A stretch of DNA of 64,000 bases from Sutcliffiella horikoshii DSM 8719. GTDB taxonomy: Bacteria > Bacillota > Bacilli > Bacillales > Bacillaceae_I. The notes under the pieces were generated by a model. It had not been told where the DNA came from. It ran no database searches and saw nothing but the letters and a program-made list of their open reading frames with translations. The position numbers and the translations under genes were made by a program. This document shows positions 11,129 to 41,226 of the stretch, one piece after another. The first letter of the stretch is position 1, and the number at the start of each line of letters is the position of its first letter. The stretch is taken from positions 186,001 through 250,000 of the forward strand of contig LQXN01000061.1 in NCBI GenBank assembly GCA_001648575.1, read 5' to 3'.

Positions 11129-11347
11129 AGGCCACTGAAAAAGTACAATATTTTAGGTATCTGTTTCATACCGCTGTTGATTTCCGCAAACGGCTTCGCT
11201 TTCCACGGGGCGACCTTGAGCCTCCTCGGGCTTACGCCCTGCGGGGTCTCAAGATTGTCGCTATCCCCCGTAGGAGTCTTCGCCTATTGCTCCAATCAAC
11301 AACTAGAAATCGTAATAATGATAAGTTATTGCGTTTTTCAGTGGCCT
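11129..11347. repeat. GC-rich element A5 with AGGCCACTGAAAAA ends
   Basis: Inverted terminal repeats AGGCCACTGAAAAA lie at 11129-11142 and 11334-11347. The interior (about 11175-11310) is a divergent relative of the GC-rich cores at 12.3, 33.6, 38.3 and 41.1 kb: it starts GTTGATTTCCGC, contains GAGCCTCCTCGGGCTTACG and CTGCGGGGTCTC, and ends CAATCAAC. The ends differ from those of the other copies. No clear target duplication is visible. It is not coding. Confidence 0.75.
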
Positions 11348-11505: not shown

Positions 11506-12228
11506 ATGATACAAGCTTATAAGAAGATGTTGGTTTTCAGTTTCGCCTTGATGCTTGGAATGGTACTATCCTTAGTGGCAGCGGATGAGGCTTCTGCTTA
11601 TAACTGGACAAGGACGCTTAGTGAAGGTTCTAGTGGAGCGGATGTCAGAGAATTGCAGATCCGTGTAGCCGGATGGGCGGCGGATTCTCCGCAACAGACA
11701 GTCGTCGGTGTTGATGGTCAGTTTGGACCAGGAACGAGAGCGGCAGTCATCCGTTTTCAACGTGCTTATGGATTGAGTGCAGATGGTGTAGTCGGGCCGC
11801 AGACACAAGCCAAGTTAAATGAGTTGGAATCACCAAATGGAACGAAACACTTCAGTTATAGTGAATTTTATTCTAAAGACGGAAGCCGCTTCAACGGAGG
11901 GAATGTTTCTGCTGCAACCGTGCAGGAGAATGTCCGACGTATGATGTACAAGCTGGAAGCGATCCGTGTAAAATTGGGGAACCGCCCAATGAACGTCAAC
12001 TCCGGATTTAGAAGCATCTCTCACAATCGCAATGTCGGCGGCGCATCAAACAGTCAGCACACGTATGGGATTGCAGCAGACATCAGTGTTTCTGGTGTAA
12101 GTACTACTACTGTACGAAATGCTGCGAAAAGCTCAGGTTTTAGTGGGATCTATAGTGAAGGAAGCTTTACACATATGGATAGCCGAGTGGAATATCCATA
12201 CGGTACACAGTCTTGGTGGTGGGAATAA
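11506..12228 (+). CDS. Exported peptidoglycan-binding M15-type peptidase
   Basis: The 240-residue protein has a signal peptide (residues about 1-32, ending ADEASA), a peptidoglycan-binding domain 1 (about 38-105, GSSGADVRELQIRV to ADGVVGPQTQAKL) and a C-terminal peptidase M15 domain. The zinc ligands of that family are visible as SQHTYGIAADI (His and Asp) and THMD (His). It should cleave peptide cross-links of the cell wall. I start it at ATG 11506, ten bases after GGGAG; the longer frame from GTG 11485 overlaps that site. It stands alone and ends at a terminator hairpin that a mobile element has duplicated. Confidence 0.88.
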   Translation: MIQAYKKMLVFSFALMLGMVLSLVAADEASAYNWTRTLSEGSSGADVRELQIRVAGWAADSPQQTVVGVDGQFGPGTRAAVIRFQRAYGLSADGVVGPQTQAKLNELESPNGTKHFSYSEFYSKDGSRFNGGNVSAATVQENVRRMMYKLEAIRVKLGNRPMNVNSGFRSISHNRNVGGASNSQHTYGIAADISVSGVSTTTVRNAAKSSGFSGIYSEGSFTHMDSRVEYPYGTQSWWWE

Positions 12229-12250: not shown

Positions 12251-12288
12251 AGCAGAGGTACTTATCTAAATGGTAAGTACCTCTGCTT
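12251..12288 (+). terminator. Terminator hairpin, left copy, T-tract lost
   Basis: A 14-bp stem (AGCAGAGGTACTTA and TAAGTACCTCTGCT) ends the peptidase gene. The 27 bases 12256-12282 are repeated exactly at 12494-12520. Element A1 begins inside the right arm, so no T-run follows this copy. Confidence 0.75.
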
Positions 12289-12493
12289 GTAGACAAACTA
12301 TAAATAAGTTAAGTTATCAGTTGGAACAGTTGATCTCCGTTGCAGGAGCTACGCTTATCCGAAGGGCGGTCCGTAAGCCTCCTCGGCTACGCCTGCGGGG
12401 TCTTACATGTCCCTTCCTCCCGCGGGAGTCTACGCTCCTTCCACTGCGATCAACTAGGAAATTTCATTATTCTATAGCTTTGTCTACACACTG
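12283..12493. mobile_element. Element A1, terminator-duplicating repeat
   Basis: This 211-bp element has ends CTGCTTGTAGACAAAC and, inverted, CAGTGTGTAGACAAAG. The GC-rich core runs from GTTGATCTCCGTTG to the ATCAAC near 12454, and includes GTAAGCCTCCTCGG and CCCTTCCTCCCGCGGGAG. It is flanked by a perfect 27-bp direct repeat (12256-12282 and 12494-12520) that is exactly one stem-loop. It has no coding capacity for a transposase, so any movement needs an enzyme from elsewhere. Confidence 0.8.
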
Positions 12494-12530
12494 AGGTACT
12501 TATCTAAATGGTAAGTACCTTTGTGCTTTT
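12494..12530 (+). terminator. Terminator hairpin, right copy with T-rich tail
   Basis: The arms AGGTACTTA and TAAGTACCT enclose a 9-base loop. The hairpin is followed by TTTGTGCTTTT, the tail that the left copy lacks. This copy probably carries the original terminator tail. Confidence 0.7.
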
Positions 12531-33505: not shown

Positions 33506-33539
33506 AAAGGACGCATTCCGTAGGTGGAACGCGTCCTTT
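33506..33539 (+). terminator. Terminator hairpin, left copy
   Basis: The arms AAAGGACGC and GCGTCCTTT extend inward with one mismatch. The right copy at 33750-33783 differs by two bases and pairs better (13 bp). Element A2 starts at the next base. Confidence 0.75.
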
Positions 33540-33749
33540 CAGACTGTTGACTAACTATAAACTAGTTAAGTTATCTGGTGGAACAGTTGATCTCCGTTTC
33601 AGGAGCTTCGCTTTCCAGTGGGCGGTCCGTAAGCCTCCTCACTTCGTTGCGGGGTCTTACCTGTCCCTTCCTCCCACGGGAGTCTACGCTCCTTTCACTA
33701 CGATCAACAAGGGATTTTATAACTCAAAAACTTCTTTGTCTACAAACTC
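33540..33749. mobile_element. Element A2, terminator-duplicating repeat
   Basis: A 210-bp element with ends CAGACTGTTGACTAAC and, inverted, GAGTTTGTAGACAAAG. The core has AACAGTTGATCTCCGTT, GTAAGCCTCCTCA, GGGGTCTTACCTGTCCC and CGATCAACAAGG. It sits precisely between two near-identical 34-bp stem-loops. It has no coding capacity for a transposase. Confidence 0.8.
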
Positions 33750-33783
33750 AAAGGACGCATTCCGTAGGTTGAATGCGTCCTTT
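33750..33783. terminator. Terminator hairpin, right copy
   Basis: A perfect 13-bp stem (AAAGGACGCATTC and GAATGCGTCCTTT). T-rich sequence follows and the convergent permease gene is on the other side, so it may work on both strands. Confidence 0.75.
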
Positions 33784-33821
33784 GAGTTTATTCTGTTAAT
33801 CAATTGCGCAATATTATTGAT

Positions 33822-38150: not shown

Positions 38151-38173
38151 GAGCAAAGATTGTTTCTTTGCTT
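38151..38173 (+). terminator. Hairpin, left copy of 23-bp duplication
   Basis: AGCAAAG and CTTTGCT pair around ATTGTTT. It is repeated without change at 38394-38416 on the far side of element A3. It likely terminated the operon ending at 38063. Confidence 0.7.
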
Positions 38174-38393
38174 CAGTGTGTAGACAAAGTTATTTTATCT
38201 TTGAGATATGCAAAACCTGTGTTGATCGTAGTGGAAGGCTCGCAGACTTCTGCGGGAGGAAGGGACAGGGAAGACCCCGCAGGGCGTAAGCCCGAGGAGG
38301 CTTCCGGACCGCCCGCGAAAAGCGAAGCGCCTGGAACGAAGATCAACAGCAGGATGCAAATTTAATAATATTTAGGGCTTTGTCAACAGTCTG
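38174..38393. mobile_element. Element A3, terminator-duplicating repeat
   Basis: A 220-bp element with ends CAGTGTGTAGACAAAG and, inverted, CAGACTGTTGACAAAG. The core, in the opposite orientation to A1 and A2, runs from GTTGATCGTAGTGG to GATCAAC and contains CTGCGGGAGGAAGGGACAGG, CCGAGGAGGCTTCCGGACCG and CCTGGAACG. It is exactly flanked by two identical 23-bp stem-loops. Confidence 0.82.
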
Positions 38394-38416
38394 GAGCAAA
38401 GATTGTTTCTTTGCTT
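38394..38416 (+). terminator. Hairpin, right copy of 23-bp duplication
   Basis: Identical to 38151-38173 over all 23 bases. The sequence after it is TAGGTATAC. Confidence 0.7.
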
Positions 38417-41075: not shown

Positions 41076-41105
41076 GTTGTCGTTTTAGAGTTAAAGGGAT
41101 TAGAT

Positions 41106-41226
41106 GATTATAGTGGAAGGTGCTTGACTCCTGCGGGAGGAAGGGACAGGGGAGACCCCACAGGCGAAGCCGAGGAGGCTCCCGGACCGACCGCGGAAAG
41201 CAAGCACCTGGAACGGAAATCAACGA
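41106..41226. repeat. Solo core A4 of the GC-rich element, inside the ptsG leader
   Basis: The sequence from ATAGTGGAAGGTGC through CTGCGGGAGGAAGGGACAGG, CCGAGGAGGCTCCCGGACCG and CCTGGAACGGAAATCAAC matches the core of element A3, but no CAG-TGTAGACAAAG ends or flanking duplication are seen. It lies between the regulated terminator and the ptsG start codon, so it is transcribed in every ptsG mRNA. Confidence 0.8.

Follow-up and report, generated by a model that had tools for sequence, protein, structure and literature searches.

Three short elements in the window (the whole 64,000-nucleotide stretch analyzed here) lie between direct repeats that each comprise an entire stem-loop. On the sequence evidence, we consider it very probable that they are MITEs moved by a DDE transposase of the IS1182 family, which would take a stem-loop as its target, attack it at the 5′ feet and, once the gaps are filled, leave the whole stem-loop duplicated. 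All of the evidence is comparative, and no transposition was observed.

Results

Elements A1, A2 and A3

Element A2 (33540–33749, plus strand) is 210 bp long and carries no transposase gene; it was delimited by sequence readout and used as a query against its own genome. Its ends are CAGACTGTTGACTAAC and, on the reverse strand, GAGTTTGTAGACAAAG. It had been predicted to be abutted by two 34-bp hairpin copies with two base differences, and re-reading the coordinates bore this out: the left copy (33506–33539, a putative terminator) and the right copy (33750–33783) are identical at 32/34 positions. The predicted sister elements, with unrelated hairpins of 27 and 23 bp, were likewise recovered, each between identical repeats. 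A1 (12283–12493, plus strand, 211 bp) lies between 27-bp stem-loops at 12256–12282 and 12494–12520 (27/27 identical), the left of which starts 28 bases past the stop codon of the gene ending at 12228. A3 (38174–38393, plus strand, 220 bp), a member of a younger subfamily, lies between 23-bp stem-loops at 38151–38173 and 38394–38416 (23/23 identical). No strand was assigned to the stem-loop copies. The flanking repeats of all three elements fold as stem-loops, and their sequences are mutually unrelated. The window gave no Rfam match at the gathering score. Matches to the MITE core without element ends occur at 11164–11249 and 41105–41224.

The original prediction proposed a 16-bp end consensus. 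Ends common to the family do exist; they are less variable than was claimed. The left end of A1 and the right end of A2 have drifted. In both cases the outermost five bases diverge from the family sequence: CTGCT in the former pairs with host AGCAG beyond the hairpin (12251–12287), and AACTC in the latter with host GAGTT beyond the hairpin (33745–33788). Both ends look as if they had been rewritten by quasi-palindrome correction.

Copies of the MITE and their flanks

The genome containing the window (G000) comprises 4.68 Mb in 67 contigs. At least 46 matches were listed with the A2 query and at least 44 with the A3 query; only 40 of 285 (A2) and 40 of 281 (A3) candidate places were scored, so these copy numbers are lower bounds, and the partial nature of the lists is evident from the absence of A1 itself from the matches listed. 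With weak cross-matches set aside, at least 41 A2-type and at least 40 A3-type places (at least 81 in total) occur in this genome. The A3 subfamily is young, given that 39 of its 40 listed matches are 94–100% identical. Short, devoid of a transposase gene, bounded by terminal inverted repeats and present in many copies, A1, A2 and A3 qualify as MITEs.

Sixty own-genome loci were read out, and removal of L030, which has lost its right end, left 59 copies with both ends; the bounds of L041 were set by hand. These copies span 207–221 bp and match 11–16 of the 16 end positions. Most of the copies read out end in CAGTGTGTAGACAAAG on one side and CAGACTGTTGACAAA(C/G) on the other. The hairpin duplication that had been anticipated for other copies was found at 53 of the 59, where the direct-repeat score of the flanks was 10 or more (median 23). 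Up to three bases of slack per junction were allowed, for real and mismatched pairs alike. As a control, left flanks were paired with right flanks from other copies, and 1 of 1000 such pairs reached this score; the flanking repeats are not a product of chance. Most of the six non-scoring copies carry related hairpins on both sides plus an indel, and L018 has no flanking repeat. In three chains of this genome (C62:120704–121142, C5:353707–354163 and C67:347787–348237), hairpins and elements alternate in the order hairpin, element, hairpin, element, hairpin, such that one terminator is present three times. Chains of this kind are expected if a duplicated hairpin itself serves as a target.

Twenty MITE copies from the matches listed in two other species of the genus gave similar readings, with the score reached in 12/12 copies in G009 and 5/8 in G014. 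Among the G014 exceptions, L299 reaches the score with a repeat that does not form a clean stem-loop; L298 and L302 fall below it but have similar diverged hairpins on both sides; and the element ends of L303 were not found.

Empty sites in relatives

The original prediction held that a strain with an empty site should show one hairpin. We compared syntenic stretches from five relatives, covering six insertions in nine ortholog comparisons, and a single hairpin was present at the empty site in 9/9. The site of A2 in G008 contains a single 36-bp hairpin. The site of A3 in G007 contains a single diverged hairpin, in a weak comparison with a flank identity of 72.6%. Two further insertions of the window's own genome behave alike: at the site of C64:261199, G014, G008 and G003 have a single hairpin and no element, as does G014 at the site of C64:182639 (again a weak comparison, with a flank identity of 70.6%). 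The best case is an insertion in G014 compared with G008, in which the flanks are 96.6% identical and the hairpin matches at 31/31 positions. Another G014 insertion lies in the ortholog of the A1 terminator; G008 and G006 both lack the element there and have a single hairpin. For A1 no usable comparison was available: the automatic empty-site script found no site-spanning ortholog for 3/8 elements (A1, one in G008 and one in G014). The B1 comparisons were made apart from this script, as the B1 repeats are too diverged for it.

At the position of A1 in the window (12283–12493) and at approximately 1057355–1057519 of C1 in G014, the terminator of the orthologous gene is occupied in both genomes; the flanks differ and the elements are 71% identical. 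Judged by their sequences, these are possibly two independent hits on one terminator.

The single hairpin at empty sites bears on two other explanations. We regard it as barely tenable that tandem duplicate terminators existed beforehand, with the element landing between them, or that recombination built the arrangement. A single IS locus (L271), whose two flanking hairpins differ, has the structure that recombination between copies would give; the nine empty-site comparisons contradict this explanation as a general account, and the repeat abuts both motif-defined ends in the 67 IS loci described below. Weaker still, and in our judgment essentially untenable, is a stem-loop replacement like that of IS1272, in which the hairpins would be element-borne or brought by the element. 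The available parts of PMC5678879 and PMC4923244 describe this replacement for the same family and the same kind of target, which speaks in its favor. However, in 67/67 cases the hairpin sequence differs from site to site, yet the two sides of each site match, and the single hairpin already present at empty sites contradicts replacement for the copies examined.

Full-length IS1182-family relatives

The original prediction suggested a search for full-length IS sharing these ends. Such IS, with ends of this kind, do exist; they belong to the IS1182 family and show the same stem-loop duplication. An intact example in G007, of the same genus, encodes a transposase of 448 aa and lies between two identical 30-bp stem-loops (L097). 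It fulfills the criteria for IS1182 membership, as its terminal inverted repeats, CAGCTTGTAGACAAAG and CAGACCGTAGACAAAC, enclose a single transposase gene and this transposase, the one member tested, scores 477.4 bits against the NCBIfam IS1182 equivalog NF033551 (cut-off, 270). Its Pfam domains are DDE_Tnp_1_6, DUF772 and DDE_Tnp_1. Over its 448 aa, the G007 IS transposase shares 99.8% identity with a copy on a Sutcliffiella horikoshii plasmid, which makes Sutcliffiella the probable genus of G007 and of the window. The AlphaFold model of the transposase is poor (mean pLDDT of 64.4). Within L097, hairpins occur at both IS ends. On the left, the inverted repeat pairs with another copy close by, after which comes a T-run, a terminator-like arrangement (1230–1300); on the right, a palindrome adjoins the inverted repeat (2690–2750).

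In G016, an IS (L099) is flanked by identical 22-bp stem-loops. In G011, four copies of one IS with a broken transposase frame each have a different duplicated stem-loop, of 24, 20, 22 and 27 bp as we read them. The window's own genome yielded five DUF772 hits in a transposase search, and only two of these, both degraded or fragmentary, are of this clade: L062 is a degraded full-length IS with versions of one hairpin at both flanks, L061 is an IS fragment, and the CAGCTTGTAGACAAAG end is found in the two. No intact transposase of the clade with CAG...GACAAA ends was found in this genome. In G009, where A3-type MITEs are abundant, L098 has an IS end, CAGACTGTTGACAAAG, that equals the right end of A3 over 16 bases; it contains one in-frame stop, and its other end was not located.

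The MITEs therefore have ends in common with autonomous-type IS, as a MITE should, namely CAGACTGTTGACAAAG of L098 and CAGCTTGTAGACAAAG of the degraded own-genome L062. Similarity between MITE and IS beyond the ends was not found, and descent of the MITE core from an IS interior has no support. Because the own-genome copies of the clade are degraded or fragmentary and L098 has a stop and an unlocated end, mobilization in trans is inferred from the ends alone. With this reservation, IS of the IS1182 family that have 16-bp ends of this kind are the likely autonomous partners of the MITEs.

One candidate for a full-length parent of A1 and A2, L102 in G008, was rejected. Its flanks matched both halves of A1, but it proved to be a different IS1182-like element inside the MITE core, with ends GAGGCCACTGAAAAA and a 9-bp repeat, GGCTACGCC.

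Repeat length and hairpin symmetry in a large IS sample

When named genomes were scanned with an alignment of the L097 and L099 transposases, at least 500 relatives were retrieved, and the best 80 of them were examined. These are the closest relatives, and several genomes supply many of the loci. A direct repeat of 19–42 bp flanks the element in 68 of these 80 loci, which span 13 genus names from Bacillus to Saccharibacillus; 67 were identified by their end motifs, with a repeat of at least 14 bp required, and L258, with a variant end and a 25/25 repeat, makes 68. In the 67 loci, 65 repeats are perfect, all 67 sequences differ, and the repeat touches both motif-defined ends. Twelve of the 80 loci lack a demonstrated repeat: six are truncated by contig ends (L196, L198, L200–L203), ends were not found in four (L205, L206, L241, L242), and two have ends without a repeat (L249 and the aforementioned L271). 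Eight plasmid loci were also read; the repeat is present in two, from S. horikoshii (30/30) and Listeria (21/21), and none was obtained from four E. faecium ISEfa7 loci, one Exiguobacterium locus and one A. citreus locus.

The original prediction that the duplicated length follows the hairpin is supported by near-identical IS copies. In OV166, 11 copies that share at least 99.94% identity with the first carry repeats of eight lengths, from 19 to 33, and in N. drentensis seven copies at least 99.8% identical have five.

It had further been predicted that the repeat runs from the first to the last base of the stem. Read as a palindrome from edge to edge, the repeat pairs at 0.94 of facing positions in the 67 IS loci, and shifting the frame by 1–6 bp lowers this to 0.31–0.49. 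Each junction is fixed by its own IS end, independently of the other; in 66/67 sites the two are symmetric about the hairpin dyad (offset 0), and to this extent the prediction stands. The boundary is less strict than was thought. The edges fall within an A-tract and a T-tract, usually 0–4 A:T pairs beyond the first G/C pair: zero, one, two, three and four such pairs were counted in 12, 18, 18, 14 and 4 sites, and 11 in one (n = 67). The stem often runs a few pairs past the repeat. A strict rule placing the boundary always at the last stem base was rejected, as the first, second and third outer positions are paired in 56, 51 and 49 of the 67 sites; this pairing arises because A-tracts face T-tracts. 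Among the 47 own-genome MITE copies with clean repeats, the dyad offset is zero in 38; the other nine, which weigh against the proposal, depart by half a base in five, one base in two and two bases in two. Thirteen of the 60 loci, including L030 and L018, were left out of this test owing to lost ends or to weak or indel-containing repeats.

We considered whether the A-tract and the T-tract might be read as sequence and cut independently, the hairpin being duplicated merely because it lies between them. Tracts at 66/67 sites, and a repeat that starts with A in 57/67, are what such recognition would give. Cut height nevertheless varies, from zero to four A:T pairs and once 11, and is equal on both sides in 66/67 sites. 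When cuts were drawn independently with the observed heights, an average of 15/67 sites were symmetric, with a maximum of 32 in 20,000 simulations. We judge independent reading of the tracts to be quite improbable; the coupling of the two cuts is best explained by a folded target.

Terminator-like targets

An A-tract before the repeat or a T-tract after it was found at 66/67 IS sites and 45/47 MITE sites; the rate at random places in the window, including those within genes, is 14%. The repeat begins with A in 57/67 IS sites. The genes on either side of 58 own-genome MITE copies are convergent in 29 cases, tandem in 27 and divergent in 2, so that 56/58 copies face at least one gene 3′ end. For this count, ORFs were called mechanically, L030 and L041 were excluded, and no gene-context control was included. 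By these features, the targets look like intrinsic terminators at gene 3′ ends. The A-tract stays with the left copy of the hairpin and the T-tract with the right copy, and hence each strand retains one hairpin with a U-tract. From this we infer that termination is preserved on each strand and that insertion is tolerated.

Discussion

Proposed mechanism

DDE transposition proceeds by attack of the element's 3′ ends on both target strands, followed by filling of the gaps. We propose that A1, A2 and A3 are non-autonomous MITEs that would be mobilized in trans through their common 16-bp terminal inverted repeats (CAG-N4-T-N-GACAAA). The transposase would select a stem-loop, in practice an intrinsic terminator at a gene 3′ end. 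The two 3′ ends of the element would each be joined to a 5′ foot of the hairpin, one on the top strand and one on the bottom strand; strand transfer at these positions is inferred from the filled segment, which equals the whole stem-loop. Filling of both gaps would place a complete stem-loop on each side, with a duplicated length equal to that of the hairpin. Were the target extruded as a cruciform, both 5′ feet would lie close together at the four-way junction for any stem length, and their adjacency would allow a single enzyme to produce repeats of variable length.

A cruciform in duplex DNA is itself an inference, and sequence cannot tell it from other folded forms. The main contender is a folded target that is not a cruciform of resting duplex, with the transposase acting during transcription termination or at a replication fork, where a hairpin forms on one strand or in RNA. 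Terminators are places of RNA polymerase pausing and high torsion, and nearly all of the sites resemble 3′-gene terminators with A/T-tracts, which would suit this account. Against it, the duplication needs mirror-image cuts on both strands (66/67), and a hairpin on one strand offers none. In addition, one of seven targets of TnSha1, of the same family, lies in a coding region according to the accessible portion of PMC4923244. We consider a one-strand or RNA hairpin unlikely, though not negligible, and retain the 5′-foot attack on a stem-loop in duplex DNA as the preferred reading.

If this reading is correct, it is DNA structure, not the transposase, that would determine the length of a target duplication. 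Most DDE transposons duplicate a fixed length of target, set by the spacing of two active sites; here the duplication tracks the folded target, from 19 to 42 bp in one clade. Copying of the terminator would let this duplicating clade insert without cost to neighboring genes: the findings suggest that an element can occupy terminators while leaving one complete terminator per strand, which could explain its abundance. In at least 500 relatives (best 80 examined), the loci also provide a natural record, legible in the sequence, of how a transposase recognizes stem-loops.

Comparison with known systems

Palindromes or terminators are also the landing sites of REP-targeting IS and class C group II introns. 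These depend on different enzymes, and we know of no duplication of stem-loop length by them. Repeat lengths in the ISfinder entry for IS1182 reportedly vary widely, and the lengths seen here may therefore be on record without the hairpin interpretation.

ISEfa7, an IS1182-like element of E. faecium plasmids, has a transposase 58.9% identical to that of L097 and the end CAGACTGTAGACAAAG. In contrast to the present clade, no repeat was seen at the four loci examined, and the sole locus with both ends readable has a hairpin on the right side only; these loci may be few or rearranged insertions. Short repeats are listed in the available parts of other reports on the family: 4 bp for ISCaa15 (PMC3196728) and ISPse1 (PMC3281130), both IS1182 elements, and apparently 4 and 0 bp, as we interpret the columns, for two ISMac2 MITE sets (PMC3852290). 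MITE derivatives are known in this IS family, and the portions of these sources at hand list short repeats and do not mention stem-loop duplication.

Short repeats also characterize a contrasting IS1182-like group with GAGGCCACTGAAAAA-type ends, in which 13/13 loci with both ends found (31 loci tried) have 8–9-bp repeats: L102 in G008; L103, L110, L116, L121 and L124 in G005; and L169–L171, L180, L107, L122 and L125. In G008 and G005, elements of this type are inserted within the repeat that forms the A-type MITE core. The best dyad falls at most one base from the repeat centre in 9/13 loci, and L171 fits by its second-best dyad (no control); in L107, L122 and L125 the dyad does not fit the repeat centre, and the hairpin arms at L103 and L116 are weak. 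The arrangement resembles pathway c, duplication of the loop only, in Figure 13 of PMC5678879, as far as the available text goes.

That some IS1182 members use palindromic targets, as the original prediction noted, is stated for the family in the accessible parts of PMC4923244 and PMC5678879 and is met in the IS loci examined here. The large duplications mentioned with it are not what these sources report in those parts; there, IS1272 deletes or replaces the hairpin, and both IS1272 and TnSha1 target stem-loops that are wholly or partly lost, with no target duplication. The two resemble the present elements in belonging to the IS1182 family, in having 16-bp ends and in targeting stem-loops of unrelated sequence, several of them terminators; they differ in removing the stem-loop, whereas the present elements duplicate it whole. 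Loss of the stem-loop without duplication, the mark of an IS1272-type element, is not met, as the stem-loop is duplicated in 68/80 IS loci and 53/59 MITE copies. The partners of the MITEs are filed as IS1182-family members and not as IS1272-type replacing elements.

Whole-stem-loop duplication has been drawn before, as pathway b in Figure 13 of PMC5678879, an alternative to the hairpin loss of IS1272, and the mechanism proposed here is that pathway; the part of the text available to us presents no actual example. Within the open-licence PMC literature, to the extent that it was accessible, we met no report of such duplication by an IS; ISfinder was not covered. A broader scheme, for which we see no more reason to believe than to doubt, is that the IS1182 family targets the four-way junction formed when a stem-loop is extruded and that its clades join to it differently: IS1272 with loss of the hairpin, the CAG...GACAAA clade at the 5′ feet with duplication of the whole stem-loop, and the GAGGCCACTGAAAAA-type elements near the loop with duplication of the 8–9-bp apex. 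The stem-loop model proposed for IS1272 becomes testable with these loci. As far as the cited sources could be consulted, the targeting of stem-loops by IS1182 members is known, and the variation added here is duplication of the whole stem-loop instead of its loss.
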